The notes under the pieces were generated by a model. It worked only from the letters and a program-made list of their open reading frames with translations. It made no database searches and was not told the origin of the DNA. Position numbers and translations under genes: made by a program. DNA of 64,000 bases from Haliotis asinina (taxonomy: Eukaryota; Mollusca; Gastropoda; Lepetellida; Haliotidae). The number at the start of each line of letters is the position of its first letter. Position 1 is the stretch's first letter. The stretch is from NCBI RefSeq assembly GCF_037392515.1, contig NC_090283.1:17307001-17371000 (forward strand), written 5' to 3'. Below are positions 2,940 through 50,484 of this stretch, piece after piece.

Positions 2940-3004
2940 ATGGAGACTGTGAAGATTTTCTTTTCCGCCTGTGTGCTACTGCTTCTCAGTGGGATGGTTC
3001 TGTG
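2940..3004 (+). CDS. neuropeptide precursor, exon 1 (signal peptide)
   Basis: Encodes the N-terminus of the secreted precursor: METVKIFFSA followed by a leucine-rich hydrophobic run ending GMVL. The ATG has A at -3 and G at +4, a strong initiation context. Read straight on, the frame hits TAG two codons after GTTCTG, but a donor GTAGGT sits at 3005-3010 exactly before it. The exon therefore ends with two bases (TG) of a split codon. The only acceptor-led exon in the window that needs such a partner is at 49359: its first base C completes TGC (Cys), giving V-L-C then T-E-E-E-G. That puts a valid -3/-1 pair (V, C) at a signal-peptidase site. Exon identity is inferred from signal-peptide character, donor, phase and promoter; no transcript is available. 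Further phase-compatible exons inside the intron cannot be excluded. Confidence 0.75.
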
Positions 3005-3049
3005 GTAGGTGAAACTTTGTCAAACTTTACTTCTGTTGAAAGATACTGT

Positions 3050-3262
3050 TAAACTGGGAAGGCGTGGCGAATGTTAAACTGGGATGGCGTGACAAATGTT
3101 AAACTGGGTGGGTGGCGAATGCTAGACTGGGTAGGTAACGAATGTTAGACTGGGGTGAGTGACGAAAATTAAACTGGGATGGGGTGACGAATGTTGGACT
3201 GGGATGGGGTGACGAATGTTGAACTGGGATGGCGTGACGAATGTTTAACTGTGATGGGGAAG
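3050..3262. repeat. ~24-bp minisatellite
   Basis: About eight diverged units of TTAAACTGGGATGGCGTGACGAATG, beginning 45 bases inside the intron. Confidence 0.85.
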
Positions 3263-3619
3263 GGTGACGACTAAGATAAAGAACTTTCTCTGATATGAAC
3301 TTTTCGTTTTACATATTAGGAAAGCATTTATAACACTGCATGTGAAAGCCTTTTAGGAGGAAGATGAAATGACAGGGATCGACTTGAGAATTGATATAGG
3401 TATTACATCTTATCATCGGTGATGTTTACAAACACTTTGATGTGTATTAAAGCTGTTGAAGAATGGGCTGGTGATGGGAGATGAGGGTTCAGAAAGGGAA
3501 TTTTGAACGGTACTGGGCTTTAACTCATATCAGCTCGGCAATTTATTTACAGTTTTATCAAAGACTTACTATTTAGAGTAGTTCACATGGGATGAAGTTG
3601 GGATAGGTGATAGTGTGTA

Positions 3620-3745
3620 AGTCGGGGCGGTGATGTGAAGTTTGAGTTAGGGTGGCGATCGAGTTTGGGTGGCGATGCGGGTTACGGTGGTGATGTGAGT
3701 TAGGGCGGCCATGTGAGTTGGGGTGGTGATGTGAGAGGGGGCGGT
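3620..3745. repeat. degenerate GGTGRYGATGTGAGTT repeat
   Basis: Seven or so imperfect units with the theme GGTGGTGATGTGAGTTAGGG. The G-rich bias resembles the 3050-3262 array but the unit differs. Confidence 0.6.
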
Positions 3746-4297
3746 GATGATACCGAGGACTGGGACAGCCATGGCGATCTGAGTTGTGGTAGTGATGGGG
3801 GATTTCAAAGTCGACCAGGGCGATAACTTCTCAAAGACGGAGCATTACCTCAGATCAGCTTGATGATTTTCAGACTTATGATTGATAAGATTGCATTTCA
3901 AAGATTTTTCTATGTAATATAGTTACATGCTGAGGAAGATGAAGGTCGGAACTTGGTTAGGTGGCGGCAATGTGGATAGCGAAAAGATGGCAAATACTTT
4001 CGGGAACATGACCTATCTTAGCGAGAAGTTTACCGATTTATGATAAGTGTCACGATTTGAACGATTTTGAATTTGAAAGTCTATATAGCGATACGTTTTA
4101 TCATCAATACAGATTTTGGCCGTCTATTCTTACACACTAGTATTGCTGACAGCTAATTTCCTGAATCGAGTTTTAACTATGTACGTCTTATTTTGCAATC
4201 TTCTAATACTTAAAATCGTTAAGCGAATGTTTACATTCTGAGATATGTGATCATGATGCTCTCAACATGATTATCACGACTATTTTCCACCCTAAAT
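3746..4297. other. no feature seen
   Basis: AT-rich intronic sequence without recognisable exon, repeat family or RNA gene. Confidence 0.5.
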
Positions 4298-4530
4298 ATG
4301 AATTGTTCCCGTGCATGGTATAGGCACTGCAAGAACCGCTGTTCTAATGCTTGAAAATGGATTGTTCCAGTGCATGTTATGGGCACTGCAAGAATCGCTG
4401 TTCTAATGCTTGAAAGTGGATAGTTCCAGAGCGTGTTAGAGGCACTGCAAGGACCGCTGTTTCAATGTTTGAACATGGAGATCGTTCCAGTTTCATGCAG
4501 TACACAGACCGCGCTGTTCTGATGCTTGTC
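4298..4530. repeat. ~63-bp tandem repeat, four units
   Basis: Units carry GTTCCAGTGCATG, GGCACTGCAAGAACCGCTG and TTCTAATGCTTGAAAATGGA. The fourth unit is the most diverged. Confidence 0.85.
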
Positions 4531-4853
4531 AGTCATACGAGTTAAATACGTTTACCTTTACAGACTGATTTGAAACTCGTCCTATTATTTGATGTAACGG
4601 TTATAGGTCAGCCGGTAACTGCTCCGAGCTGTTAATCTAATCTCACGGTGTAATTTCCCTGTACGTTACGTTAGGATATGCCGACCTGTCATTAACTGTC
4701 ACAATAACATTAGCGATGTTGTCGCATATGACACGAACCATAATCGCTGTTTAATGCGTTATATATATCCCAAACAAACAGCTCTGTGTGTAAGTAAATG
4801 AAATCGAATCAATCTTCCCTTAAGCTCGGTTCCTTATACAAATGACAGACACA

Positions 4854-5018
4854 GTGAGTGAATTTAGCTTTACGCAACATTAGCAATATTTAAGCACTAT
4901 CACAGAAGGGGGCACAGAAATGGGCGTCATACATTGTACCCATGTAGGGATCCGAACCCAGGTCTTCAGCGTGACGAGCGAACGCTTGAGCGACTGGGCT
5001 ACCTAACCGCCCCTGACG
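4854..5018 (-). mobile_element. SINE-A copy
   Basis: Reverse orientation. Tail (GAGTGAATTTAGCTTTACG) is on the left. Box B complement GGATCCGAACCC and box A complement GGGCTACCTAACCGCCCC are on the right. Nearly full length. Confidence 0.88.
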
Positions 5019-5322
5019 AACACAGTGCAAAGGGGCAAGAGGGTCGCAAGCAATGGCAGTTAGTCCACCATTTCTAGCGATCCTCTAGCCCCGTTTTATA
5101 TTGTGTTTGCATACTTATTTTGATAGTATATTTCATTTACCCTTAACAAAATTTTAATATATCTTTGCGTTAATTTTATGCTGTTGATATATAGTTGGCA
5201 TTGATGTATGGATATAGCATTCTCTCGTCACGATATGACTGAACAACTGCCGATGTGACGTGAACTCGCTCCTTCACCTATCATATGCAATAATGTAAAC
5301 TCCCGTTAAGTATTTTCTGAAT

Positions 5323-5421
5323 GAGTTTGGGTTAAATCAATGTGAGTGTGGACTAAATCAGTGAGATTGGATTAAATCATTGTGAGTTTGGATTAAATCA
5401 CTGTGAGTTTGGATTAAATCG
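5323..5421. repeat. ~21-bp tandem repeat
   Basis: Five units of GTGAGTTTGGATTAAATCA with small changes. Confidence 0.85.
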
Positions 5422-5488
5422 CTGTCAGTAATGACATTGTATTCGAGAACAATGTTACATGAGGTAATCTAATTCAGTAGCTAGTTAT

Positions 5489-5640
5489 CGGGTCGGTGGG
5501 ATAGGCTAGTGGTTATCCCGTCACGCTGAAAACCCGATTATGACTCCCCACAGGGATAAAATGTCTGAAAAGCATTTCGGGTGTCCCCCGCCGTGATATC
5601 GGTGTAACATTGTTAAAAGCGGCGTGAAACTCACTCTTGC
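5489..5640 (+). mobile_element. SINE-A copy
   Basis: GGCTAGTGGTTATCCCGTC (box A region), degraded box B, then GTGTCCCCCGCCGTGATATC and AAAGCGGCGTGAAACTCACTC. Confidence 0.85.
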
Positions 5641-5841
5641 CATTGAGTAAATTCAAAAGTCCTTTACCAAATACTCAGTGGCATTTGTCTGCCCGATAGA
5701 TTCCACTTCACTCAGAGTCACTAGTGATGAATGGACCACCCGGTGCCCTGATCAGCTGGTAGCCGCATGTGTAACGCTCAGTCTTACTTGGGTGTCTCAT
5801 ACTCTTATCAGTCAGGAGAAGTTTACATATAAATGAAGGAA

Positions 5842-5997
5842 TGAGTTTGGATTTACTCCGCGTTTAGCAATATTCCAACTATATCATAGTTGGGGTCATC
5901 GGAAACGGGTTCCACACATTGTCCACATATGAGGAGTCGAACCCGGATATTCGGCGTGACTAGCGAACGCTTTGAAATGTAGGTTGTCCTACAGCTC
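5842..5997 (-). mobile_element. SINE-A copy
   Basis: Tail complement on the left (CCGCGTTTAGCAATATTCCA), GAGTCGAACCCGG box B complement, and a degraded head. Confidence 0.85.
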
Positions 5998-6000
5998 CAG

Positions 6001-6404
6001 TTTGCAAATAAAAAACGAGAAATTTTCGTTATTAATGGAATTCAAACATTATAGACTTCGTGCGTGAGTGAAAAAGAGAGTGAGTAAACGTTTTGACAGT
6101 TATCAAGAGCCACGTATTAATGACGTACTTCAATCGACCTTTCTAGGTCAGTAGATAGGTCAAATCAAAGGTTTCAAATCGCAATTTCCACCTCTAAATT
6201 GGATGACGCACCACCGCGAGTAAATCGTCCCCATTCTACCATGTTCAAGGCATGTATGGCTATACAATGCAGCCAGTGATCACACAATAGGAATCGAGCT
6301 AAATGTACCGTTTACAATATCATTCTACAGTGATCTCACCAAATTCAATTTAGCACCAACAAATCTTCTAACGTTGGAAAATAGGCTGAGGTTATCTTTA
6401 GAGC
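6001..6404. other. no feature seen
   Basis: Intronic sequence without a recognisable gene or repeat. Confidence 0.45.
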
Positions 6405-6700
6405 TTGACGCTGTCTCTCTCCCTTTCTTTCTCTCTCTTTCTTACTCTCTCTTTTTCTTTCTCTCCCTCTTTCTCTCTCTCTCCCTCTCTTTCTCTCTCT
6501 TTCTTTCTCTCTCTTTTTCTTTCTCTCTCTCCCTCTCTTTCTCTCTCTCTTTCTCTCTCTTTTTCTCTCTTTCTCCCCCTCTCTCTCCCCTCTCTCTCTT
6601 TCTCTCTCTCTTTCTCGTCTCTCTTTCTCTCTCTCTTTCCTTCTCGCTCTCTTTTCCTTTCTTTCTTTGTTTCTCTCTCTCTCTCTCCTTTCCTTGTCCT
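6405..6700. repeat. ~295-bp polypyrimidine (CT/CTTT) tract
   Basis: Almost uninterrupted CT, CTTT and CCCT on the + strand. The Ser/Leu/Phe reading frames across it are composition artefacts. Such homopurine-homopyrimidine tracts can form triplexes; none is shown here. Confidence 0.95.
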
Positions 6701-6705
6701 TGTAT

Positions 6706-7375
6706 TTTGGCTTTAATTGTTGTTTCTATCGGATTTCGCCCGCTACGCCAATGAAATGATATGAAAGTGATTATTCTCCAGCTTTCACATTTTATCCAGT
6801 TTAACTCACGTCTCCATGTTCTTTATCACAAATAACAATACACACTTTGTTCACTTTCTGACATTAAAATAATGTTATTACGCGATTTACTTGCGTGAGG
6901 AACTGCAAGTGTTACTGGGGGGAAACGGATACGGCCAGAGAGAGAACGGCCACGGCCAACATACGTAAAAGCGTGTGCACACCCCAACGCCACTAAGATG
7001 TTGACAAACAAGTTAATTGTGTCCACAAACATTGGCAGTTATCGACAGGAATATCAAATTCCATGCCGTTGTTGAAGACCGTGATAATGATGTCGCATTC
7101 CCGTGTTGGGGTCGTCCCGGACACTCTACTAAATCATGAATACAACTAATCTCTACGCTGAGCGTCAGCGGATAAACGTACGCAGACAAGGGGAGTTCAA
7201 GATGTTGCAAACGCTGTATCGATAGTTCTTGAAGGTACGATGAAACAAAAACCCGCTGAAGGACACTTTCTTTTTAACTGTTCAGAATTTACTGCACCTA
7301 TCATGACTGTAATGTCCCCATGTTAAATCATTATAGCATTGTTCATTATGCTTTGTCATTGCTGTGTAGGCATTT
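6706..7375. other. no feature seen
   Basis: Nothing recognised on either strand. The short open frames lack domain-like composition and splice signals. Confidence 0.45.
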
Positions 7376-7575
7376 TATAGATACTGTTGCTGCTGCTACT
7401 ACTACTGCTACTACTACAAGTATTAAAGCTACCGCTACTACTACTTGTAATACCACTACTGCTACTACTACCAGTATTACTACTACCGCTACTACTACTT
7501 CTAATACCACTACTGCCACTTCTATTACTACACTACTACTACTGCAACTACTAGCTACTAGAGAAAACTACTACT
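7376..7575. repeat. (CTA/CTG)n trinucleotide tract 1
   Basis: Interrupted array of ACT, GCT and related triplets. Thr-rich frames across it are artefacts. Confidence 0.93.
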
Positions 7576-7608
7576 TATGCAACTATTAAACTGTCCAACC
7601 GCTAGATG

Positions 7609-7675
7609 TTCTTAATGTTTATCATTGCATTATCTGGTCCAGACTCCATGACTTTTAGGCCGCCGCTACGTAGCT
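7609..7675 (+). mobile_element. SINE-B fragment
   Basis: Keeps TTATCATTGCATTATCTGGT, CCAGACTCCATGACTTTTAG and GCCGCCG of the 3' half. It abuts the second triplet array. Confidence 0.65.
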
Positions 7676-7684
7676 ACTACGTAG

Positions 7685-7899
7685 CTATTATGTGGCTACT
7701 ACTACTACTACTACTACTACTGCTGCTGCTGCTACTACAACTACTACTACTACTGCTACTACTACTGCAGCTACTGCTACTACTGCTACTGCTACTACTA
7801 CTGCTGCTACTCCTGGTGCTACTGCTACTGCTACTACCACTGTTACTACTACTACTACTGCTACAATTACGTACTGCTGTTACTACTACTGCTGCTGCA

Positions 7900-7934
<35 letters not shown>

Positions 7935-7940
7935 CACTGC
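7685..7940. repeat. (CTA/CTG)n trinucleotide tract 2
   Basis: About 255 bp of CTA with CTG and CAA interruptions, open in several frames (Leu, Thr or Ser homopolymers). Not coding. Confidence 0.95.
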
Positions 7941-9048
7941 AACTATCATCGCTATCACTATCATCCACGTAACTCAACGTAACATTTACGTCAAATAATT
8001 CATTTACTTCACTTTGATGTATTTCTGTACAAATATTTCTGTGTAAACTCAAGTAATTTCATGTGATAAAGTAAACAAGTGATGATCATGCCCATCGCCA
8101 TGTCAGAAATACTCTTTCACATGTTACAAATGCACGCTTGTATAATTCATACGACACGGAACTCCACCTTTGATCCGTAAACATCATCCCAGTCGCCACG
8201 CTGTTTACATCACATGTAAACAAGTGACACCCTTGTCCTCTCCAGCTATCCTGTTGCGTGATCGTTAAGCATACATTTGATGCTTATGGTTAATTATGTC
8301 TTAAATCAACCCTGCATCGTCGTGTTGCGACGAGAGATTAAACAATAAGTGTGTTACAACGAGGTTTAATGATGGCTCCAGGGCAGATGGTATTTCCAGA
8401 GCACAAATCAGATAATTGGCGTGCTTCACATAGTGAAACCGTTGGCTTCTATTGCCTTGATTGTGTTGAGAAACCTTGAAGCAGTACATACACTTGACGT
8501 CCATCGGTTTGATGTTGATGTCGTTGCCTTGAATAGTTTGCTAAGATTCAGTTAGATGAGCTAATTCAATCATGGTTCAGTCCCAGTAGAATGTTCTGAA
8601 TAGTATTTACCAATGCCCTAAGTTGATTCGGCATTATTATCTGTATATGATTTACGACGAGATTTTTCCACGACTTGTATATATGAAGCTTGAACTTTTT
8701 CCTTAAGATTTGTTTAGTTTTCCAATATATCAATATATGGAGGGAGGGGGTGGGGTGGATGGGGGGTGGAGGGGTGTTACCAGTAGAGCAGAATGTGCTT
8801 ACCCTTTATCAGAGCACCGGGTGTCAGAGATCATGTCATATAATTATTGTCACTGGATTGCCTGTAACGCCCAATTAAGGCTGTTTCGGCAGACAGATGA
8901 TGCTGATCGTATATTGATATTATTATGACAAATCGTATTATAGGGTTAGCAAATCTTAGCTTTACAAATATTCTTAGGGACTACAGTAGAGCGACATGTT
9001 CAAATTTTGGATGTATGTTATACTTGAATCTACTCGGTTTTGTCACAG
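7941..9048. other. no gene seen
   Basis: AT-rich intronic DNA. The only peculiarity is a short G-rich stretch around 8740-8780. Confidence 0.45.
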
Positions 9049-9186
9049 TGTGTGTGTGAATGAGTGAATGAGTGAGTGAGTGCATGAGTGAAACAGTGCG
9101 TGAGTGCTTGAGTGAGTACATGAGTGCTTGAGTGAGTGAGTGACTGAGTGCTTGAGTGAGTGAGTGAGTGAATGAGTGAGTGAGTG
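9049..9186. repeat. (GTGA/GAGT)n microsatellite
   Basis: About 138 bp of GAGTGAGTGAGT with interruptions. It joins the tail end of the reverse SINE-A copy at 9187-9345, so it is probably the expanded SINE tail. Confidence 0.93.
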
Positions 9187-9345
9187 AGTATTACACCAAA
9201 GTCAGTATGACCTTACTCAGCTTTAAGCAATATTCCAGCTATACCATGGCGAGGTACACCAGAAAGGTGAAATTTGACCAATGTGGGGAATTGAACCCGG
9301 GCCTTCCAAGTGGCAACCTCACCACCCCTTCATGCTTAGAAGGTC
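9187..9345 (-). mobile_element. SINE-A copy with expanded tail
   Basis: AAGCAATATTCCAGCTATAC tail complement, then GGGGAATTGAACCCGGGCCT (box B complement). The tail repeat is the GAGT array to the left. Confidence 0.85.
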
Positions 9346-9409
9346 GTGATGTGGGCTTAGTACCGTTTTGAACAGTAATTTAATCCAAACCGCTTTGTCA
9401 GATTAATGA

Positions 9410-9566
9410 TGAATATGGTTTTACGCCGCGTTTAGAAATATTCCAGCACCATCACTGCAGGGGACACCACAAATGTGATTCTCACATTGTGCTCACGTGG
9501 AGAGTCGAATCGAGTCTTCAGCGTGACGTGTTAACGCTTTAACCATTAGGCTACCCCACCGTAGGA
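9410..9566 (-). mobile_element. SINE-A copy
   Basis: GGTTTTACGCCGCGTTTAGA, GAGAGTCGAATCGAGTCTTC and AACCATTAGGCTACCCCACC place tail, box B and box A complements in order. Confidence 0.88.
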
Positions 9567-10761
9567 TACATGGATGCTGAGAGCATGGTTGATATTGTGA
9601 CCACCAGTCTACGCAAAATATGACGCAGCAACACAATTCACCGTCTCAGACCCCTGATTAATGTAGTGGCTCTGTCGACAAGGATTAGTTGTTCGGGGCC
9701 TATTTTGACCTGAATACCTGTTGGGTATACAACAAATATTGTCTTGTAGCCTGTGCTTTGGATGGATACAACTGACATAATTGAGAGTGGATACCGCCGC
9801 TCACACCTTGCCTATGCTTCAAATACCGTTTAAATTGGTGTACTGTCTAACGATCAAGGTGTAAGTCAGATGTCAGACAAAACAATTCGTTAAATAGTAA
9901 TATAAAAACGTGATCATTAGTGTCACAATGTATTGCAAAACCAATATAGGCCTGTATATCTTCCATGTTATCGACATTGTACAGGGAGGAATGGTAAAAT
10001 GGATGGTAAAATGGATAAAATGGGTTAACTTGGTAAACAGTTAGTGCGCGGGAATGTTTCGAGCTAAATGAACGCATCCCGCGAGGGTTGCGCCAAGGGC
10101 CTGTGCTGCGGCTCCAGATATTATGAGCAGAAAATCGTAAATCGTGACTGGAAAGGCCAATTCAGCAATCTGATGAGATGATATGTCCTTGGTGGTTTGA
10201 AATAAATCATCGGAAATATGCTGGGTAAATGACATAAATTCTATCAAAAACATGCTCGCTATCAAAATAGCTAATAATCCGAAGTAATCCTAATGAGAAC
10301 GTTATCCTAATTGTCTGACGACCAGATCATATTTGTATTTCCTTCAATTAAAAACACAAAGCAAACTGAATAAAAGAGGAAACAATATTGGGTTTGAGTG
10401 CAAAGGTTTTTGGGTTTGTATGAATGATATTTCTTGTGCTATCATGTCTTTGTATCATTATCATCAATCACTACTTTACCTTACTTTATGTTTCTTTACA
10501 GGCCGATTTATGGGTGGTATTTTACTAAACGTTTGTAACAAAATCAGACACTTATGACAAGTTAATACTGTTCACTGCCGAAACCTCGAAAAATAGAAAT
10601 CCTAATGTTTATTAAATCAAATGAAAATAATCAAACTAAATATTAGCACACAGATGAATGAAACCCTTTAGACACCGGCTGTTAAAAAAAAGCCGACGAC
10701 GTGGCTATATTCAAGAACGTGAAATATGCGGGAAAGTTTTGCCGCCGATGAAAATGTGTGT
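9567..10761. other. no feature seen
   Basis: No exon-like or repeat-family signal recognised. Confidence 0.45.
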
Positions 10762-10910
10762 TTGAGTTTAGTTTTACGCCGCACTCAGCAATATACTAGC
10801 TCTATGTCGGCGGTCTGTAAATAGTGGAATTTGGACCAGGCAGTCCTGTGATCAACAACATGAGCATCGATCTACACAACTGGAATACGGTGACATGATT
10901 TAACCACGCT
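10762..10910 (-). mobile_element. SINE-B copy, 3' half
   Basis: TTAGTTTTACGCCGCACTCA, GGCGGTCTGTAAATAGTG, GACCAGGCAGTCCTGTGATC and ATGAGCATCGATCTACAC are all reverse SINE-B landmarks. Confidence 0.88.
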
Positions 10911-12652
10911 TTTTCACCAATCACGTCTTACAAAAAGCATGGTTTACTAAAGATTAATTTTACCTCCGATCCTCACGAGAAGAACTCACTGGAAGGAAAT
11001 AATTTAATACCCAGTGTAGTGTCAGCACACACCAAGCACACTTAAAATCTGAATTTGTTAAGTTCATTGAATAGTATTTACATTGATAGGAGACGACGCT
11101 CATAATATCAATCACTGGTTTGCTTGGTCCAGACTACATTACTTACAGGCCACCGTGACACCGTGAGACCGTGACGTTTAAAAACAAACATACAGACACT
11201 TTCCGCTACTAAAGTTATTTAGAAACGTTGAGCCTTAATGAAACGTCAATAAGGGTTATAATGTATGTTCTCACAACGTCGCTAGCGATATTGACGAAGC
11301 AGTCACCGTGAAATAGAATCGATGAGGCAATTTTAAAGCATGCGATAAAACCGATCACACAATAGCGAGCAGTGTCTTTTTCAATTTTACATTTAACACT
11401 CATGATCAAAGGATCGCTTCCAAATACCCCAATTAGTACTACGTGATCATAAATGGAACTTCATGCGATTCACAAGAGGAGGAGACGAATTAAAGAGACA
11501 CTGGTGCGACTTTATTTGATATTTACGCATTGCCGTAACTAAAACTACTTTCACTTGGCTCTTATTTCACAGTAATGACCCTAACAGGACGGCACTGATA
11601 CCGCCGTAAGTAAGATTTTACCGTTAGATCAGATGAAGCGCACTGGCAGGTACTTGGTCGCATACAATGCCAGGATGACCGGAGCCAATTAGTGAATGGT
11701 TCTTTTCGTGATGGTAATATAATATTTAATATTTCATTTTATTTGCATTTCATCTGTGGCAGTATAATTGATAGGAGGTGTTTGAAATCCTTTTTCGAGA
11801 TTCTGTGACAAATATAAAGAGTAATAGCCTAATTACCTTGATGTATTTTGAAGTCAGGACCGGAAGGATTTGGGGAAATGATTGATATGTGTGACGTAAT
11901 CATTTAGTTCATTTTATCAAGGAGATATTTAATAAACGATTCAAACAATAATTCAAACGTGAATTGTGAATACGCGTTATTTACGACACGTTTAGTGGTG
12001 CCACACATGAACAAAATAAATCATACTTTTAAGTTTCATTTCTAAGTCAGAGAAGAACTGTGGAAATGTTTCATCCATAAATTGATGACGCTAAAATATT
12101 GTAAAAAGCAACTGTCGGATCATAGGCAAATACTTTTGTCCAGTCGGTAGAACTATTTAGTTGAAGGTGGAATGTATCATCATGCTGATAAAGTAGGTTT
12201 ACGGTTGTAATGTCATGAAACTGGTGCAATTTGAAGCTTGTACATTTCAGACAGAAATGAATTAAAATACTTCGTTTCAAAAGTTTAGACTCATGTAAAA
12301 CACTCACGCTATGTTATGTATATCTATATATGTGGTTACATCGTAGGCTGATGTCTCCACTAACTTGGGGTAACCATTTACAAACCTTATGCAGATGGAA
12401 TGCTTGAGGATCGCGCATCAAATTGCTAAAAAGCATGTGCAAATATCGTGCAGGTGAACAGTAGCGTTTTGGTGTAAATTTGTGTTCAGAATTCGCCATT
12501 TTGTACTGTTTTTTTATCATAGATTTAACTCGTGACAATAGTCGTTTCAATGTTACGAATTTGTTTTGCAATACATCATCTGGTAAACAGTTTTAAAAAG
12601 TAGGAAATAATTGTAAAAAAATGTAAAATCGAATTGAAACCAGTTGCCGGAA
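10911..12652. other. no gene seen
   Basis: Contains a doubtful SINE-B scrap at 11098-11160 (AATCACTGGTTTGCTTGGTC). Otherwise unrecognised AT-rich sequence. Confidence 0.45.
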
Positions 12653-13504
12653 CAACCTCGATATCTCCAGGCTATACGTTCCGATAAGTATCACTATACC
12701 CTGAATGCAACTACAGGTATAATTTTATTACCTCCCCTTGCTAGCTCCTCATTATCACAGTAACCAATCAGCTAAGTCGCTGTTACAACCGAGCTTGCCA
12801 GTGTCAACAAAGACAGCGGTCGGAGCTACGAAGGTTGTTCGCAGTGCGGCTCTGTGCCTTGGGGGGAATTATACAGACAAACTGACAGCACCGAAACTTT
12901 AACAAAATATATGCAGGAACTCTTTCTACCTGTGTCACAGAAGCTCTGTATTGTTTGTGTTGCCAAGTTTAGTCGGTTAGATAATGTAAAAAGCCAAAGT
13001 GAGTTGTGATTGGTACGCTCAACTTTCCAGCGTAGATACCTGATTGGATAAAAAGCCAGCCAAAGGAACTAATATATTCATCGAGGCGAGCCGTAGATTC
13101 GTAACTATTCGTCTCTTTCCGTGACCTACTAGAAGACTCGTCCCCCTTTCGTACACCATTATTGCCAAGAATCGTAGTAAACCAATCAAATCTCACGTAG
13201 TAAAACGTTTTCGAAACATGAAAATGGCGCATTGCTGGTTTTCACGAGTAAGTTACGAATGCCGTAGATACCATTCGTAACTATTCGTCTCTTTCCGTGA
13301 CTTACAAGATGCCATCTGGATTGCCTGAATGACACGAGTAGATACGAATGCCGTAGATACCATTCGTAACTATTCGTCTCTTTCCGTGACTTACAAGATG
13401 CCATCTAACTTGCCGGAATGACACGAGTAGTTACGAATGCCGTAGATGTTTCAATGGTATACTGGAGATTAATCGGAACGTACAACCTGGAGATCTCGAG
13501 GATG
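12653..13504 (+). mobile_element. MITE-1 copy 1, with a nested insertion
   Basis: Left terminal inverted repeat begins CAACCTCGATATCTCCAGGC. Right end finishes GGAGATCTCGAGGATG. The body matches the copies at 39010 and 46948. It is flanked by TTGCCGGAA on the left and TTGCCTGAA on the right, a 9-bp near-perfect target duplication. Long inverted repeats with 9-bp duplications are typical of Mutator-type elements, so I infer a non-autonomous Mutator-like origin. A foreign array at 13099-13438 interrupts the right inverted repeat. Confidence 0.85.
13090..13447. repeat. nested tandem array of small inverted-repeat units
   Basis: The 9-mer GCCGTAGAT, native to the MITE-1 end, recurs at 13090, 13261, 13350 and 13439. 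The last two spacings are both 89 bp. Between the 9-mers lie units that start TTCGTAACTATTCGTCTC and end ACGAGTAGTTACGAAT, which are inverted repeats of each other. This reads as a small element inserted with a 9-bp duplication and then multiplied in tandem. Confidence 0.75.
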
Positions 13505-14405: not shown

Positions 14406-14412
14406 AAATTAG

Positions 14413-14462: not shown

Positions 14463-14473
14463 AATTAAATAGG

Positions 14474-14890: not shown

Positions 14891-14926
<36 letters not shown>

Positions 14927-40125: not shown

Positions 40126-40342
40126 GGATCCGCATTAGAACTAATCTTCAGTAACCCATGCTTGTCGCAAAAAGCGACTAACGGGATCGGGTGTGCGGGC
40201 TCGTTGACTTGAGTGACACATGTCATCGTATCCAAACTGCGTAGACGATGCTCATGCTGTTGACAGCTGGAGTATCTGGTTCAGACCGTAGCCGTGTAGC
40301 TGGAATATTGCTGAGTGTGGCATAAAACCTAGCTCACTCTCT
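40126..40342 (+). mobile_element. SINE-B copy
   Basis: ATCTTCAGTAACCCATGC, GCGACTAACGGGATCGGGTG, CACATGTCATCGTATCCAAA and ATATTGCTGAGTGTGGCATA. Confidence 0.9.
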
Positions 40343-40485
40343 CATAGTGTAGATGAGTCCGATGGAGGATATATGACCTTTTTTTCACCTTGATCATAAT
40401 GAGGATACATAGTGTGTCTTAAGCATTTTATGAAAATTGTTTCATGAGTATGTGCTGCTGAATCTCCTTTGTCTTGAACACCAGG

Positions 40486-40869
40486 TATAATAATTTATAT
40501 TGCGCCAAACTCCGCTCACGAGGTGAGTGCTCATAGCGCTATCAGTCAAAGCAGGCATATTATTACCCCTTATAACCCAAGCTGCCTGTTAGGCGCTAGA
40601 AGGTTATACTCACATGACTTATGCCACCGGGTACCAATTTTCTGCTGGGTGAACAGAAGCAATTTTGAACAAACTCATTTGTCTAAGGTGAGACCACATG
40701 TCTCATTCGCTTCGCTGTAGGGCAGGACTGAAATCGCAGAAACTCTGAGGGGTTAAACTGCCGGTCACCCATCCGAGCACTGTCCACTCCCATCGCTGCT
40801 TAACTTCACCGGATTGTGATCTGAGCTTTATGCACAGGACCACACGCCACCACTATGGTCAAGGTTACT
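40486..40869 (-). mobile_element. 5S rRNA-derived SINE (SINE3-like)
   Basis: Read on the minus strand, the 5' part resembles 5S rRNA: GACCATAGTGG, then GTGAAGTTAAGCAGCGATGG, then GCTCGGATGGGTGACCGGC, in the order and spacing of the 5S gene with its internal promoter. A ~270-bp non-5S body follows, ending in GGCGCAATATAAATTATTA. A real 5S gene would be ~120 bp, not have this body, and match better. Confidence 0.83.
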
Positions 40870-40914
40870 CGCCACTGGTATGGGATTAAAACAAATTCAG
40901 AATTATTTTGAAAA

Positions 40915-41045
40915 GGGGCAGTGGGGTAGCCTGGTGGTTAAAGCGTCCACTCGTCATGTCAAAGAGTGCGGGTTCGATTCCCCACATGAGTGTGTGATAT
41001 TGCTGGAACATTACTAAAGCGGCGTAAAACCATATTCGTTCACTG
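40915..41045 (+). mobile_element. SINE-A copy, internal deletion
   Basis: GGTAGCCTGGTGGTTAAAGC (box A region), GGGTTCGATTCCCCACATGA (box B), then a jump to GATATTGCTGGAACATTAC and GCGGCGTAAAACC. Confidence 0.92.
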
Positions 41046-41869
41046 ACATAAAAACACAAAATTAGGACACAATTATCTTGTGACAGAGAGACTAGTGCAA
41101 ATATATCCAAATCATTTATTTCTCAGTTTAAACTTCACACGAAGTGTAATTTTTTATCAAGCAAAATGGTTACGAAATTTCAAAGTAAAAAAGACATTTG
41201 GCATCTGAGAATAATAGAATCAAACTAGCCTTGTCAGGTTCATAACACGACCATTTTGTCGCTGTGTGATGATGGAGAAATGCAAATTCGATTTTTCCGC
41301 TGACTCGTAATGTAATCAGCCGCGTTGACTTCTGGGATATCTGTTGATGACGGCTTTGATGCCATGGTAACCACCGAATGCTCCATCCGTTACATAACGT
41401 CTGTGACAAGTGGCACATGTGAATATGCTGTCATATGAAGTGACATTATGACTAATATAGAAAATGTGAACCAGTTTTTCGTAGTGTGATTCGGTTTATC
41501 ACAACCTGCCATAGTTAAGCAAGAGTACAGTGTCCATGGCACCCATACGTGTTTAATCAAGAAGTGGGAATAATGAAAACACCTTTGGCAAATTATGTTT
41601 GTCACCTGTCACGTGGGAAATCTGTTGCAAAACGCCACGAAAATGTTGCAATCTTTGGTTCCCGAAGTAAAGGTAAATAAACTTATCTCAAACTTTCATG
41701 TTTCGACAAATTAATTAACACAGAATTGACACACGATTCTTAAATTATGAACTTTTGTTGAAACTATTGGTAATTACACAAAATCGGTTGATATGCCTTC
41801 ATTTGGACGTCATGAGCCAGCCCTGTGTTCACAGATGTTTCTGATTCTAAACATCTCTTAGGGACGTTT

Positions 41870-41998
41870 GATGACATTTCATCGTATCCCAACTGACGCT
41901 CATGCTGTTGATCAGTGGGTTGTCTGGCTAGGTCCCGACTCCATTTCTTACAGATCGCCGATATGTAGTTTGAATATTGTTGAGTGCGGCGTTAAACA
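41870..41998 (+). mobile_element. SINE-B copy, 3' half
   Basis: CATCGTATCCCAACTGACGC, GCTGTTGATCAGTGGGTTGT and GTTGAGTGCGGCGTTAAAC. It ends directly in the AAGC/AAAC microsatellite. Confidence 0.87.
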
Positions 41999-42003
41999 AA
42001 GAA

Positions 42004-42043
<40 letters not shown>

Positions 42044-42077
42044 ACAAACAAACAAACAAACAAACAAACAAACAAAC
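41999..42077. repeat. (AAGC)n(AAAC)n microsatellite
   Basis: About ten AAGC followed by about nine AAAC units, grown from the SINE-B 3' end. Confidence 0.96.
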
Positions 42078-42514
42078 GGATAGTGAAACATTAGCACCAC
42101 AACAAATAAACTATCAGCAGAGACATTATCGGTTAGTGCCTATGTGAATTCACAAATGACATTCCGTGTTCGCCAGCACAAAATTCCCTTGTACATGAGT
42201 GTGAAACAACAAGCAAATAAGAAGATGCTATGAAGAACAAGCTTGGATGTCGTGGTGGAAGTATAAATTTAAAGGCATTAAGCTCAACATTTAAGCAGGT
42301 TTAGTTCACCCTGGTATATCTGAGAACGTCTAAACATAAAGCGTTTATCGCCAGATTGGTCAATCTAGAGACCAGTATTGAGAAGGCGTATTACATGAAT
42401 CGCCTCGTAAAGACTCTAGGACGGAATTATCCTCTGTATCACGTGCTGGCTGTCATGTTTATTGACCTGACTGATAGCATTTCAGCGTGCTCCACGCGCT
42501 TTGGATTAGTGTTC
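42078..42514. other. possible low-copy-repeat scrap
   Basis: 42085-42180 loosely matches the 30490-30610/35280-35400 part of the low-copy repeat (GACATTATCGGTTAGTGCC, ATTCCGTGTTCGCC). Rest unrecognised. Confidence 0.4.
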
Positions 42515-42612
42515 ATAGTATCAACGGCTACTTTGTTAGAACCAGACTCAGAACGTTGTCAGCTGCCGTCGTGCATCTGGGACGTTGATGAGTGCAGTGT
42601 TGAATTCAAAAT
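42515..42612 (+). mobile_element. SINE-B, ancient 3' fragment
   Basis: TTAGAACCAGACTCAG, CAGCTGCCGTCGTGCATCTG and GATGAGTGCAGTGTTGAATT align with the SINE-B 3' half. Confidence 0.6.
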
Positions 42613-45600
42613 GCCACATATTTACGACAGTATTTTGTCCTGTGTTATATCTATCGGGGCATATGCACTCACTTTAGCTTATTATCCATACAGTAAAAGA
42701 CGTATTATCCCTTAAGACTTTCCTGAAATGGATAAATGAAACTTCGAATTGCTCCATACATCGAACACTGTCGCACGCACTGTTGTTGGTGTTTACCGAT
42801 CTTGTTTCACTCAGAAACTGTGAGTATGATATTCGTAAAGAGCACCCAGGGGACGTAACTCTATGGGAGTCGTTTGAAATTATGCTCGGAGGGTAGAGGG
42901 AGCAAGAGACGTTATAATGCAATGTCGCACTGATTCGTGTGAACTTTTGATTTGATACTATAATCTAAAGTAGGTAATTGTTTTTGGAATAAGTAATGTT
43001 TAACTTTCATGAGGGCTGATAATGTAATTTATTGTCATGTTTGAGTTAGGGGTTTACATATTCACCTTAAGTCTTATTGTGTATCTGTATGTTTCTAAGT
43101 TTGATCAAGCTTGTGTTATTCAAAGCTTATGATATTCTCTCCTTTGTCGACAGATATTTTAAAGTGAATACCTTTTTACTACTATATAGCTGTATCCTTG
43201 TTGTCATGGAAACTTTGACCACTTCCCCCTGAACCTGACATTCGAAGAAAACAATTAATGATTATTTAAACACGAATTTTAGTGATGCTCAACACACATG
43301 CATATAGCCAGGCCTTTCCAAACAAACGGAGACATATATGGCCATTTTACCAATTCCGTGCCTAGTCGTTCCCCCTGTAAGAAAATAGCTGGGAGACCAC
43401 AAACACTATCATGAGAACTCGTTCTTTCATATTTCAACACAGATTTCATGTGTAAAGATCATCATTACAACAGATAAAAGAAACACACTTTCAGTAATGA
43501 TGCATTATTAAACAACACCCGAGGCTCCCAGAATTTAAATATTTACAATCTGTTTTTGCCTGAATGTTGTAGAACTTTCTGTATCCCATGATTGGGCATA
43601 ACTGTATAAACCATTTCACGAAAGCTACTGAGGCCATTTAACACCTTCAATGAAGTTCAACAAACTCTCAAGTGTGCCACCTATGGGATTCACCTAATTA
43701 AGCCCTTTGCTCGTCGTGACCGTCAATGCGGAGCCTACAAACTAATGACATACGATATGCTAAATTATTCGATTACAAAATTGCATACCCTGAAGCATCA
43801 TAGAACTGGAATAAGCAACCCTCTTTGCACCAACTTCCTATGCAAATCTGATTTAACGGAGAGCCCATGACGGTTTCAAATCACGTTCAAGAGCACCAAT
43901 AGTAGTAACTGCAAATAAAACGGATGTGTAGCTTAGTTGGATTCCCGAAGGCTGGAATTCCCCTTGGGAAACCATTTGACTCGTTGAGACAATAAAACAA
44001 GTGAATAGTGAGGATTTAAACTTCGGCTGCTTTTTATTCAACCTTCCTCTAATTGCCAGGGTTAAATGGTTTTGTTGTTTGACAGTTGTTTTTGGAACTG
44101 TTGCCATTCAGTGAAATGAGTGTCCGTTAGCTGTTCTTTACAATCCTTCAATCTTGTTCCTGGGGTGAAGTATTGCCAATAATTAACCCAGTACGGGAGC
44201 CTGATGGAGCAATTTGCCATTTAGCTGAACAGTGAGTGACACAGGAGATTCAGTGCAAGGCCCAAGTCGTTGACAAAGGAAGACATGGAGTTATTGCCCT
44301 TCTTTGAATACTCATTGCTTCTAGTCCACGTTTAATCAAGTCTTTCTTTACAAAAAGTGAGTGGAATCTGTCGGTTGCCGCGTGTGTTCCCTACGGGTGA
44401 ATGCTGAAGTAATTGAGGGCTGAAACATATCCTGTACTCGACACAGACTCATTTACTTTGATTGCGATCAGTTTTACCAAATATATCAGTGCCAACCTTG
44501 CAGTGCTGATTAATAGGTAAGGTGTGACACGCATCGGGTGTTCTAACAAACATTATTCGCCAGGGCGAAGTAATCAAGTCACGCAAATTTGAAGGTATTG
44601 ATAGTTGTAGAAGTAACTATTGTCTCGAATCAGATTACTAATTTGGGCATCGGCAATAATTTGATAACTATGTTCAAAGTAAATACGCTGATTATTTAAC
44701 CAAATAAATTGCTAGTACTACAGAACATATTGGTATGATATTTTGATTAAGGTGAACATAATCCTCCTCCCAAAAAGCACAAACAAAAGAGAATCAAAAA
44801 AAAAAAAAAAGGAAGGACGCACCAAACACAGTAAAAAGGCCCACACAAAACGGTACACCTGTTTTCAGCTTAAAGGCAGTATCATACAATGTAATTATCC
44901 AGGGCAATGACTTTTTGAAATCAAAGTATATATATGTTGTTATATATCTATATGTGATATTGTATGAACAGCAGAATACGATATCTGTATTCACAAAAGT
45001 AAAATAACCGGTTTGTCTTCTGTAAGGGGTTTGATCAGTAATAACCTAATGTATTTTAAATTTAATTTAAACTTGCTTTACATTACCATTCTGTTTGATA
45101 CCGTTTCCATGTTGTTTTGTCAACCACTTTTCAAGTGTATGCTGTTCGTATGCTGTTTAAAGACGAAGTCGCATTACGCGATTATGGTTTATTCAAGATA
45201 TGGTCACCCTTTCACTCATTTAATCAATCAATACATTTGAAAACGAAATAGCTGAAGGAAGCATGGTATAATTTTAATCACACTAGATAGCTTCACTTCA
45301 ATAGTATTAGCGTTCTGTGGTGTCCCGCAGAGATGTACTCGTTTACAAGTGTGTCCTCTTACTATTTTCCAATAACAAATGTTAAGCAGTGATGACTTTA
45401 TATGATGTAAAGAGACACGCAAGTCTGGGACCGAATGTAAAGACGTTTTTATTTACAACAGGTTTTAACCACATGTGGTATGCACATTATGCTGAGTTTC
45501 CCTCATCGTGTAATAATTAGTTTATTTGCACAAATACTGAAAGATATATGCCAACGAAACTGGCTTGAAAAGATGTGTTTCTTCGAAAAGCGATTTCTAT

Positions 45601-46497
45601 TCATCTTCTAAACCATCCGGGTTTTTTTCAGAGCATAATCTATCAGGTGTCACGATAAAATTATTCAATTACATCATCACATGATTTTTGGATTGAAAAA
45701 GGTAGATTTATGAAGACAAATGGCGAATATAGGCTATGTAAATCATATAAATGTCTTAGAAAATGGATAGTTATTATTTTTCACTTGTAGTTCAGTTATT
45801 AGACTACGCTGAATACACCTTAATAATTTTTTTATTGTTTTCATCCATCAGTAAACAGAGTTTTATTCCGTATTAAATTGCAACAATCACTATGTGATTA
45901 AGAATGTTGCTGTGTTTATATAGTATGCCATGAAACACAGGAAAGAATCGTCTGGGCGCCATAATTGTATGCAAACACAATATCAGTGTCGTATATAAAA
46001 CTATTGAATTTCTATATTGTACTATTATATGTTGTACTATAGGCCTGTGGCTGTTTCGTATTGAATTAGGATTGATTGAAGTATTGTGAACATCTAACTT
46101 GTAGCTGTGTTTTATTCAGGGCGCACATCAGGGGCGTGGGATATCCTCTTTAGAAAATTTATTTCCCAAAGACCTGATCGAAATCCTTTGTTCTTTCCTG
46201 GGTGAAATCTGGGATGAGAGTTATTCCTAGATGAAAATAATTGTAGCCGTTGGGATAATAAATGGAAAAGGTACTAAGTGTACGAACTTTATTCTCACTG
46301 AGTTATGATCTGTTCATGAGTGTCATAAACAAGATGCACTGGAGAAGACAATGGAGTTGTTTTCACGTTTTACGTCACACTGAGAGAGGGCTACTGATGC
46401 TACTGCCTCTACTATATCATTACAATGCATGATTCTCACGCTCATTCTCTACCCGCTGTACACTGTGTGAAGCCCATGTCCTGTCCCATGATTTTCT
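42613..46497. other. 3.9 kb without recognised features
   Basis: No SINE, MITE or coding exon recognised; the longest quiet part of the intron. Short A homopolymer at 44796-44810 and TA-rich text near 44925-44955. Candidate location for missed short exons or enhancers. Confidence 0.45.
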
Positions 46498-46801
46498 CGG
46501 TCCTGGGTAGAATAGGCATTCACCAACCGATAGTTGCCGTGAAAGGCGACTATGCTTGTCGTAGGAGGCGACTAACCGGATCGGGTGGTCAGGCTCGCTT
46601 TCTTGGTTGACACATGTCATCTGTTTCCAATTGCGCAGATCGATGCTCATGTTGTTGATCACTGGATTGTCTGGTCTCGATTATATACAGACCACCGCCA
46701 TATAGTTGGAATATTGCTGATTGCGGCGTCAAAACTAAACTCACGTGACTTTCCTGGAATACGGCAACAAGCGGCGTAAACCTAAACTCACTCACTCACT
46801 C
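46498..46801 (+). mobile_element. SINE-B, full length with doubled tail
   Basis: TCCTGGGTAGAATAGGCATT to TGCGGCGTCAAAACTAAACT, then a second tail-like segment (TGGAATACGGCAACAAGCGG, AAACTCACTCACTCACTC). The second tail looks like a remnant of another SINE. Confidence 0.92.
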
Positions 46802-46947
46802 AACTGTTACACTGGTTTTGTAACTGAGATCACGTTCGCCGTGCGAGCATTTGTTTTTGTACAACGAACACTTCTTTCACTACTGAGCTAGGTTTTTTAA
46901 GTCATTTTATGATTTTTTGACTTAAATACAGTCACATATATATAGAC

Positions 46948-47449
46948 CATCCTCGATATTTCCAGGGTATACGTTCCGATAAGTCTCGACTATACCATGG
47001 ATGCATCTACGGCTCGGTCCGGAAATTTTATTACCTCCCGCATCCTCACAATCAGCCAATCAGCTAGGCCCCCGTTACAACTGAACTTGCCAGTCTCAAT
47101 AAATATAGCGGTTGTAGCTGCGAAGGTTTACTCGCAGTGCGACTCAAATTTAAGAGAAATCATACATGCACATTGATAGGTCCGAAAATTTAAAAAATAT
47201 ATGTATACAAGAACTCCCTCTGCCTCTTTCAGAGAACCTCTGCACAGTTTGTTTTGCCAAGTTTAATCGGTTAGATAATTTAAAAAGCGAAAGTGTGTTG
47301 TGATTGGCTCGCTCAACGTCCCGCCGTATACACCTGATTGGATAAAAAGTCAGCCAGGGGAGGTAATAAATTTATCGGGCTTAGCCGTAGATGCATCCAG
47401 GGTATAGTGGAGACTTATCGGAACGTATACGCTGGAGATATCGGGGATG
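46948..47449 (+). mobile_element. MITE-1 copy 3, intact
   Basis: Best copy, 502 bp. Ends CATCCTCGATATTTCCAGGG and CGCTGGAGATATCGGGGATG. The inverted repeats of about 90 bp run in to TTATTACCTCC and GGAGGTAATAA. No open frame long enough for a transposase. Confidence 0.92.
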
Positions 47450-47789
47450 AAATACATACTAGACATTTGTATAGCGAAGATATCTAGTTCGCCAGTTCAA
47501 CTGCTGAATGGCGCTTTGTTCTCCCCCGATTATTGGATCACATTGTATTTTAATACAACTCTGGCAGCCTACTATGCGCACCGAGTTAATGTGGCTTACC
47601 CATTCTTACGAGGTACTCAGTTAACAGACTGGGAGACATCGTCACGGTACTGTGTCCATGTTTACTACACGTTGCTGTACCCGCAACTAGGTGTTCGCGC
47701 GTATTCGTGTGGCCACCATCTGGCCATCTACCAACGGATTCGCGTGTTCTTTTAAGTGCACAGGTTTGTGTATAGCACACTAGGGGTTG

Positions 47790-47935
47790 TGATAACACCG
47801 AAAGAGTCTGCACACAAAGTTGACTTCAAGTTGTTTTACACCCAGTCACAGGTGGGCTCGATACCGGCATCTCAGGTCGCTGGATTACTAGTCTGGCACC
47901 TTAGATAGCCCGTCCACCGCGCCCCACAGTACATA
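47790..47935 (-). mobile_element. tRNA-like SINE, third family
   Basis: On the minus strand, GGGCTATCTAAGGTGCCAGA resembles box A and GGTATCGAGCCCACCTG resembles box B. CTGGGTGTAAAACAACTTG follows. It does not match SINE-A. A decayed tRNA gene is the alternative. Confidence 0.55.
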
Positions 47936-48012
47936 CTTGACCTCAAGCATCTATCCCCCTGTGGCAGGAACTGAAGAGTATGAGTTGGCCAGTTAATCGT
48001 AAATGTAGAGCT

Positions 48013-49216
48013 TTAAAGGTCACATGCAACGTAAAACACAACTTTGCAGATTCTGGTACCTTTCGGTATGCACTTACCGAAACAAATCATAAAAAATGCC
48101 ACTTCAACCTATAAAGTTGAAAAAACGCGATGAAAAAAAAGCCCGCGAAATCGGAGTTCAAACGTTTCACTAAATTCCCCCCCAGCGCTGGGGGGAAAAC
48201 TGGTTTCAACAGCTGTGCTGCGCTGCGTCCATAACGCATGCGCAGTGAATAGGTTCCCGGAGCTTGAAACAGTATGCATGCCCAGCGTCTGAAGTCGTGA
48301 GCAGTAGTCTAATCTTGGTTGTGTACACAAACAAGTAAATGATCTACTCGTTACGTAAAACAACTTGTTGATTGTGGTAAGCAGTCTTTGTCACAGAGAA
48401 AGCTCAGTGTCTTGTTTATTCACACCTATATGTCTGCCTGCCTGTCTGCTAAAGACAACATGCAATACACAGGTTCAATCACTGACTACGTGCAATTTGA
48501 ACTTAACACCTATCAGACTATACGACATAAAGAAAATAAGTTGATTTATGACTCGTGCACCCGGGTCCCGTGTCTGCCACATTATGTAATGGAAACGGAA
48601 ACTGGTGCAAACTCTTGTCAGTTTGAAGTCCTGCTTTGTACTTGGACGAATGACAGATTCCAGTCACGCAGTAGTTTACCATCTGACATGATTTTTGATT
48701 GGATCGAGCGAAAATTCATAGAACATGTATTTTCCAAACCCAACATGTCTATATACATTCTTCATGGATAACGACTTCTTTTAGTGTATATGATTTTGTT
48801 TGACAACAGTATATGAATCCATACTGAAACGACGCATCAAGTACACAAAAAGAAGTTGTTACCCATAAAGAATCTTACTTTCTTGTGACTGGCTTTACTT
48901 CTAAAGTGCCCATCAAACAGATCATCTTACTGTACACACAACGAACCCTCAGTATATCAGCAAATGAAACAGCCAATCGGAAGCCGTCGTTACACTTGAG
49001 TGCATATCCACCCGCTATGACTGTGTTCGGTCTCCCGAGGGCTTCGTTTCGGGGGAAGTAAGCCCAAGTAAAAAATATTGCACTTTTGAATCGCGATTGT
49101 ACGCTTATAATTTTGTTTATTTGTTTTTTTAAAGCAGCAATGTATATTAGATGTCATGAATAAGTGATAAATGTGTTTTAATAATGTTTGATTTTTTGGT
49201 TGTATGTGACCTTTAA
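48013..49216. mobile_element. 1.2-kb TTAA-flanked inverted-repeat element
   Basis: TTAA at 48013-48016 is followed by AGGTCACATGCAACGTAAAA. The other end reads TTGGTTGTATGTGACCT then TTAA at 49213-49216. The outer 15-20 bp are inverted repeats. TTAA duplication is the piggyBac hallmark, but the terminal bases do not look like the usual piggyBac ends, so superfamily is left open. It contains a 127-codon frame (48388-48771) without a recognisable domain, so it looks non-autonomous. Confidence 0.75.
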
Positions 49217-49358
49217 GTAAACTGAGAATATTACAGATTGGAACGTAATGAAATCAAAATATTCGAAAACTGACCCCTTATTCACCAATTGTAAAATTGT
49301 ATACGCATGCGTTTTTGTACATTTACATTTTTTACCTCGTTTCTCTTGCTTGTTTCAG

Positions 49359-50484
49359 CACCGAGGAGGAGGGGGAATCGCACGAAGTATCAAAGAGGTC
49401 ATTAGACAGTGTCGGCAGCGGTTTCATCAAACGACCTCTTGACTATGTCGGCAGTGGTTTCATCAAACGACCTCTTGACTATGTGGGGAGTGGCTTCATT
49501 AAGAGGAAGTGGAACCCAGACATTGGGAAACGCCCAATAGATCAAATAGGTGCGGGCCTCATCAAGAGAACCATGGAACAAGATGAGGAGGAGAAACGAG
49601 ATCTGGACTATCTTGGCCTTGGCCTTCTCAAGCGTGAGGATGACTATGAAGAGGAAAAGAGGAACTTGGATCGTGTGGGAATGGGGCTGATCAAGCGACC
49701 AATTGATACATTAGGAAGTGGGTTCATCAAGAAAAGACCCCTTGATTACCTTGGATCTGGTCTGATCAGGAAACGGTTCTACGACCCTTTCGAAGACAGC
49801 CTAAAGAAAAGACCCATTGATCGGATCGGCAGTGGTCTTATTAAGAAGCGGGCCATTGATGAACATGACATGGGTCTCTTAAAGCGATCACTTGATTCAG
49901 TTGGTTCTGGTTTCATTAAAAAGAGACCCATTGATTCCCTTGGCTCTGGATTTATCAAGAAACGTCCAATTGATTCCCTTGGATCCGGATTTATCAAGAA
50001 ACGTCCAATTGATTCCCTTGGTTCAGGATTTATCAAGAAACGCCCAATCGATTCCCTTGGCTCCGGATTTATCAAGAAACGCCCAATCGATTCCCTTGGC
50101 TCCGGATTTATCAAGAAACGCCCCATCGATACCCTTGGCTCCGGATTTATCAAGAAACGCCCCATCGATTCTCTTGGCTCTGGATTTATCAAGAAACGCC
50201 CAATCGATTCTCTTGGCTCTGGATTCATCAAGAAACGCCCAATTGATTCCCTTGGCTCCGGATTTATCAAGAAACGCCCCATCGATTCTCTTGGCTCCGG
50301 ATTTATCAAGAAACGCCCCATCGATTCTCTTGGCTCCGGATTTATCAAGAAACGCCCAATCGATTCTCTTGGCTCTGGATTCATCAAGAAACGCCCAATT
50401 GATTCCCTTGGCTCCGGATTTATCAAGAAACGTTCCACTGACACTAACAATGCTGATCTGATCAATAGAGATGCGTCAAAGTAA
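49359..50484 (+). CDS. neuropeptide precursor, exon 2 (pedal peptide/orcokinin type)
   Basis: Encodes the processed part of a secreted prohormone. The acceptor AG is at 49357-49358; with exon 1 the predicted precursor is about 396 residues. An acidic leader TEEEGESHEVSKR precedes about 24 peptides bounded by KR, KKR or RKR prohormone-convertase sites: SLDSVGSGFI (2), PLDYVGSGFI (2), PIDTLGSGFI (2), single variants such as PIDQIGAGLI, NLDRVGMGLI, PLDYLGSGLI, PIDRIGSGLI and AIDEHDMGLL, and twelve copies of PIDSLGSGFI. Acidic spacers (TMEQDEEE, EDDYEEE) lie in the first half. The last 13 units are a 39-bp tandem array. No Gly precedes the basic sites, so peptides end in free Ile after trimming. 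The (I/L)D-S-x-G-x-GF pattern fits molluscan pedal peptides, distant relatives of arthropod orcokinins; family assignment is moderate, prohormone status strong. Stop TAA ends the frame after NRDASK. Confidence 0.92.
49923..50430 (+). repeat. 39-bp coding tandem array, 13 units
   Basis: Thirteen in-frame 13-codon units encode PIDSLGSGFIKKR (one has T for S). Units differ almost only at third positions. A two-unit block starting at 50197 recurs at 50353, exactly four units (156 bp) away, showing a multi-unit duplication. Confidence 0.95.

Follow-up and report, generated by a model that had tools for sequence, protein, structure and literature searches.

A pedal peptide 2-type precursor gene in Haliotis asinina with a probable signal-peptide exon 46 kb from its peptide exon

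Results

A 64,000-nucleotide stretch of the abalone Haliotis asinina (contig NC_090283.1, positions 17,307,001 to 17,371,000; hereafter the window, in whose numbering positions are given) very probably holds a mollusc gene of the pedal peptide/orcokinin type, closest to "pedal peptide 2", in which a signal exon (2940-3004) is joined to a peptide exon (49359-50484) across a predicted phase-2 intron of 46,354 bases (3005..49358, + strand). An earlier note on this DNA had proposed these two exons, and the sequence bears out their coordinates; our best reading is a neuropeptide gene whose signal peptide is encoded on a remote exon, with the splice from 3004 to 49359 predicted from the genome. For a mollusc genome of 1.14 Gb, this would amount to a full model of one pedal peptide 2-type gene, and it illustrates how automated annotation can leave such genes without their start.

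Exon 2 (49359..50484, + strand) is a real neuropeptide exon, far beyond chance. It encodes the spacer TEEEGESHEVSKR, 24 pedal-peptide-type decapeptides between dibasic sites (KR, KKR or RKR), a few short spacers and a TAA stop ending at 50484, and a poly(A) signal AATAAA (50530..50535, + strand) begins at the 46th base past this stop. Half of the decapeptides (12 of 24) read PIDSLGSGFI, the four stretches that are not decapeptides are WNPDIG, TMEQDEEE, EDDYEEE and FYDPFEDSL, and the C-terminal end is STDTNNADLINRDASK. None of the 24 decapeptides carries a Gly before its basic site, which is present in one other fragment (WNPDIG-KR). Across all six frames of the window, the pedal-type peptide motif is confined to exon 2, where it appears 23 times; the exon gave no Pfam match at E 0.1. 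Part of the coding sequence is a tandem array (49933..50432, + strand; 39-base units, 12.8 copies according to Tandem Repeats Finder) encoding PIDSLGSGFIKKR, whose 13 units have 1, 0 and 7 variable columns at codon positions 1, 2 and 3, respectively. Pairwise codon differences among these units are 234 silent vs. 12 non-silent, which points to selection on the peptide sequence, although the units were copied from one another and are thus non-independent in these counts.

The open frame containing exon 2 (49252-50484) has no ATG ahead of the first peptides, and therefore an upstream start exon is needed, as the earlier note had reasoned. Immediately before 49359 stands TTGCTTGTTTCAG. An out-of-frame ATG at 49307-49309, with a signal-like reading through the acceptor pyrimidine tract, was ruled out by eye (other frame than the peptides, early stop). 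The proposed coding part of exon 1 (2940..3004, + strand, 65 bases) begins with ATG and encodes METVKIFFSACVLLLLSGMVL plus the TG of a split Cys codon, a predicted signal peptide with a hydrophobic core and an acceptable cleavage site in a simple scan of our own. All the features previously ascribed to it were recovered: a putative TATA box (TATAAAA, 2832..2838, + strand) 108 bases 5' of the ATG, a strong start context (GCGACTATGGA, A at -3 and G at +4), and a donor (TG followed by GTAGGT) with the in-frame stop TAG directly past it. The phases also fit as claimed, with TG + C forming Cys and the join yielding an in-frame precursor of 396 residues that begins METVKIFFSACVLLLLSGMVLC and continues into the spacer TEEEGESHEVSKR (LLLLSGMVLC-TEEEGESHEVSKR-SLDSVGSGFI-KR around the junction). 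In a whole-genome search, exon 1 with its promoter matched only itself. A candidate acceptor seen by eye in the 5' region (TTGCAG, ~2878) would permit an additional untranslated exon.

Under this gene model, a TATA promoter near 2832 would start the transcript, exon 1 would supply the signal peptide, and removal of the 46.4-kb phase-2 intron would join 3004 to 49359, adding the acidic spacer and 24 related decapeptides from exon 2. Signal cleavage would then adjoin the VLC-TEEE boundary, proprotein convertases would cut at KR/KKR, and carboxypeptidase trimming would leave non-amidated peptides such as PIDSLGSGFI, which may be released from neurons to act on muscle or cilia as for known pedal peptides. 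The repeat array would increase the dose of one peptide per precursor.

To evaluate how unusual exon 1 is, we scanned the 49 kb upstream of exon 2 and obtained 92 ATG-to-phase-2-donor candidates, four of which passed a loose signal-peptide filter (two with a common donor); a slightly wider filter left five donors, against a mean of 3.9 in shuffles. A strict scan, with cut-offs (donor at least 3.0 bits, hydrophobic core at least 2.8) that are exon 1's own values and hence favourable to it, returned 2940-3004 as its single site. Strict sites averaged 0.15 in 60 dinucleotide shuffles (at least one in 9/60), or 0.033 with a TATA box (2/60), and in control stretches of 64, 99.6 and 120 kb the only strict site, which lay in the last of these, was without TATA. 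A looser filter plus TATA box (donor at least 1, core at least 2.5) again retained only 2940-3004, with such a site in 13/60 shuffles and 1, 1 (the candidate of locus B, a related locus described below) and 0 sites in the same controls. Exon 1 by itself is thus only moderately above chance, and its uniqueness is moderate support for the pairing.

Protein relatives bear on the same question. A search with the joined precursor, which scored only the 7997 candidates sharing most words, gave eight matches at E <= 10, in Elysia crispata, Ambigolimax, Crassostrea virginica, Babylonia and Pomacea among others, including an Ambigolimax "pedal peptide 2" at E=1.4e-42, a type of score that repeats inflate. 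By homology and anatomy, the precursor appears to be of the pedal peptide/orcokinin type and of the pedal peptide 2 sort. In the Crassostrea protein P0006, NGATGTAEEESSSRHKR-ALDRIGSGFIKR aligned with VLCTEEEGESHEVSKR-SLDSVGSGFIKR of the window precursor, and TAEEESSSRHKR-ALDRIGSGFIKR comes directly after the signal peptide, just as TEEEGESHEVSKR-SLDSVGSGFIKR comes directly after the exon junction. P0005 has a similar N-terminal layout, and so by eye does P0004, whose best automatic alignment lies elsewhere. The oyster relatives, in which signal peptide and TEEE-like spacer adjoin, thus predict a missing exon that codes for little beyond a signal peptide, as exon 1 does. The earlier note warned that exon 1 could be missed, or the start misplaced, by automated annotation; this fits two database entries whose N-termini look wrong: Pomacea canaliculata P0008 begins within the peptide repeats and has no signal peptide, and in Elysia crispata P0001 122 residues precede the likely true start MNQSRLLLL.

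A search of the H. asinina genome itself yielded 134 matches (110 of 1239 candidates scored) and three further loci of interest. Locus B (G000:C4:17547161-17547914, minus strand) encodes 16 LASGLIamide-type peptides such as PFDPLASGLI-GKR, locus C (G000:C4:17538633-17539617, minus strand) variants of that type (PFDSLANNLI-GKR and similar, with LANNLI or LAGGLI), and locus D (G000:C4:56954426 onward, plus strand) a repeated-peptide precursor with YLESIAGDLL-KR. At the acceptors of all three, chosen by eye, the first exon base completes a codon, the phase also seen at the window acceptor. The search for their first exons, confined to phase 2, gave candidates at upstream distances of 2.2 kb for B (the top-ranked of 14 rows across 99.6 kb), 0.85 kb for C (among 7 rows across 7.3 kb) and 19.6 kb for D (the top-ranked of 3 rows across 50 kb, two of which have a common donor); the last suggests that long introns may occur in related genes. 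The TATA pattern stands 98 or 122 bases from the ATG in B (two possible ATGs) and 129 in C, compared with 108 in the window gene.

Locus C appears from its sequence to be the counterpart of Haliotis rufescens LOC124145153. Its candidate first exon from the scan (MIGASISRHTMLLLLIVTR followed by TVTAG) shares 13 of 19 residues with the H. rufescens protein P0010 (MTGANFCSHTMLLLLIVMRTVTAF), and the exon-1-only alignment scored 59 vs. at most 40 in 2000 shuffles, with two of the six other C rows scoring 11 and 12 against the same protein. Together, the common acceptor phase of the three loci and the match of the scan-found C exon to an abalone protein support the pairing of exons 1 and 2.

The intron itself had been described as repeat-filled, which holds only as a lower bound of 14%: 6,299 of its 46,354 bases match other genomic sequence, in a comparison with ~260 kb of the same genome. 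It includes 125 open reading frames (ORFs) of at least 70 residues; once 18 of low complexity were dropped, a scan of the other 107 gave a single weak match to each of five Pfam families (lowest E 0.00066). No family among these is credible in a snail gene model, and shorter exons would escape such a scan.

Several observations weigh against the pairing. The join of 3004 to 49359 is predicted from genomic sequence; the exon 1 donor is of only moderate strength (3.0 bits); and a comparable site arises by chance in the 9/60 shuffles mentioned above. Exon 1 DNA has no match above noise around locus B, and a comparison of exon 1 DNA and protein with 120 kb around loci B and C found no homology above noise among the matches listed. 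The locus D candidate has no TATA box, and the validation at locus C is partial, as the matched exon is one of seven rows in a phase-2-only scan and has the strongest donor but ranks sixth of the seven by hydrophobicity. Among the protein relatives, the alignments of P0001, P0003 and P0007 begin at about the first KR and so give no test of the junction. With residues 1-75 as query, a search of 5.8 billion proteins retrieved P0005 and P0007 alone, and the exon-1 part has no clear likeness in either. Finally, a peptidome study of abalone ganglia (PMC6523705) has no SGFI peptide in its main text.

Three other explanations, which overlap so that their probabilities need not sum to what the exon 1-exon 2 gene leaves, have to be weighed. 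The true first coding exon might lie elsewhere, upstream of the window or as a small unscored exon, or an extra small exon might stand between the two, given that the scan finds only an ATG with a phase-2 GT donor and a hydrophobic core. Seven loose rows were obtained from the 30 kb that precede the window, six of them microsatellite-derived; the seventh, which lies 414 bases ahead of the window start (MLFTLAIVNIISFNR...), has a better donor than exon 1 (3.61 bits) but a weaker core (2.43). However, all seven lack a TATA box, and 2940-3004 with exon 2 already makes a complete, correctly spaced precursor, so that we regard this as improbable.

Slightly less probable still is the splicing of exon 2 to a different first exon within the intron, at 36420-36559 (MGPNRFLLMLIILLMFAFSQNSLA...), 12.8 kb upstream. 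This candidate has the strongest hydrophobic core in the window, an in-frame phase-2 donor and a fair start context, and its sole genome match is itself, i.e., it is not a repeat. However, its donor is weak (1.29 bits), no TATAWA lies within 300 bases upstream, and its use would separate the signal peptide from the TEEE spacer by ~22 residues, whereas the two adjoin in the oyster relatives. Least probable of all is that exon 1 belongs to another secreted-protein gene and matches exon 2 in phase by coincidence: phase agreement alone is a 1-in-3 event and exon 1-like sites do occur in shuffles, but the window has no pedal-type motif outside exon 2 in any of its six frames, and the scanned intron ORFs of at least 70 residues have no credible domain. 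The pairing of 2940-3004 with 49359-50484 remains the best reading.

The peptide exons of the window gene and loci B and C lie within ~192 kb of an 83-Mb contig, with B and C 181-190 kb from the window gene and B ~190 kb from its peptide exon; thus three of the four loci of this kind recognised in the genome are neighbours, as judged from a search in which 110 of 1239 candidates were scored. The LASGLI/V-amide precursors of B and C are like the window gene in acceptor phase, layout and the peptide pattern xxDxLxSGxI, and differ from it by the Gly before KR, which would give amidated peptides. The ending LASGL[IV]-G-KR is found at locus B and in variant form at C, whereas the window decapeptides end otherwise (e.g., GSGFI-KKR). 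PIDSLGSGFI of the window and PFDPLASGLI of locus B are identical at 6 of 10 positions (3/20000 shuffles reach the score), and the pedal-type Elysia peptide PFDPLGSGFI and that of locus B at 8 of 10 (0/20000). PIDSLGSGFI and YLESIAGDLL of locus D share only 1 of 10 and 501/20000 shuffles reach that score, and hence the kinship of D to the window gene is weak. The nearest named relative is an abalone protein for locus C and, as its best match, one from the bivalve Dreissena for locus B.

Locus B is a probable local duplicate, and we lean towards the broader view that the mollusc LASGLI/V-amide family descends from pedal peptide 2-type genes by local duplication, with amidation following from the gain of a C-terminal Gly. 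LASGLI-amide has been listed among mollusc-specific families (PMC6425005), its LASGLI/V-amide precursors have been moved out of the buccalins and treated as a separate molluscan family (PMC8514136), and the function of these peptides has been described as unknown (PMC12564202). In a table of the latter source, LASGLVamide and pedal peptide-2 are both listed under contig number 98593, which may reflect their likeness or be a slip. We saw no statement of a LASGLI/V-amide/pedal-peptide kinship in the literature searched, whose coverage leaves out most subscription journals, and we therefore do not claim that it is unpublished. The neighbourhood thus offers a testable origin, and hence candidate receptors, for the LASGLI/V-amide peptides.

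Other repetitive sequences in the genome were also considered as peptide genes. L003, L005, L006, L008 and L030-L037 were rejected, as they look like minisatellite arrays (one frame each for L030-L037); of these, L031 has dibasic residues but unlike peptides. L007 showed no peptide pattern in its two best frames, and many weak matches came from C4:82.8M, C5:55.8M and C5:77.3M. On its minus strand, L038 (G000:C3:74608600-74611200) carries a 198-residue open frame made of repeats of SAWSSSYEELT-KR, in which there are 12 dibasic sites; it may be a minisatellite or a peptide precursor of unassigned kind; we do not call it chance. Elsewhere in the window are long tandem arrays at 1-732 (period 33 or 199 bases) and 56638-57108 (period 99 bases), and a MULE transposase-like fragment (63474-63998, + strand; Pfam PF10551, E 2.6e-05, 25 bits vs. 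a cutoff of 27.6) that is open at the window end. The ORFs at 32511-32927 (minus strand), 36116-36475 (minus strand), 42305-42715, 48343-48771 and 63047-63361 matched no Pfam family at E 0.1, and that at 52878-53378 matched only SH3_10 (E 0.053), under the cutoff.

Discussion

What is known of pedal peptides suggests a role for the window peptides. In Aplysia, neurons of the pedal ganglion are the source of pedal peptide, which modulates foot muscle; molluscan pedal peptides stimulate cilia, and neuronal expression with action on foot muscle or cilia has been described for peptides of Aplysia and Tritonia (PMC5656890); by analogy, the window peptides may act on foot muscle or cilia. The abalone ganglion peptidome includes pedal peptides A, B and C, of which those shown, e.g., PFDSISSGGGMAGFA, are of another sort (PMC6523705), and neither GSGFIKR nor six related strings had a match in the literature text searched.

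Among mollusc precursors, the pedal peptide 2 of Ambigolimax valentianus (P0003), compared as a protein, has tandem xIDSIGSSFI peptides between KR/KK, a hydrophobic N-terminus and an acidic spacer (41% identity over 270 aligned columns), and differs from the window precursor in repeat number, repeat order and spacer sequences. More broadly, the arthropod orcokinin B and the pedal peptide/orcokinin superfamily resemble the window gene in their multi-copy D-S-[LI]-G-type peptides, a likeness at the level of peptide pattern: DS(L/I)GGG is well preserved in orcokinin B (PMC9410093), with DSIGGG there and DSLGSGFI in the window peptides.

The separation of signal and peptide exons is common, with first coding exons holding the signal peptide in several insect and spiralian genes (PMC4237046, PMC6585902, PMC8557429) and two coding exons of this kind in SALMFamide genes (PMC3594158). 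The novelty implied by the earlier note was overrated, as the same layout, found in the same way, has been published for the L-type SALMFamide gene of the starfish Patiria miniata, for which GenScan and Augustus gave no signal peptide (PMC3594158). That gene likewise has a long intron between its signal and peptide exons and was found by upstream scanning, and it differs in its unrelated peptides and shorter intron (18,144 bases). The layout of the window gene is thus ordinary though long: 46 kb is a large distance, of a kind already known.

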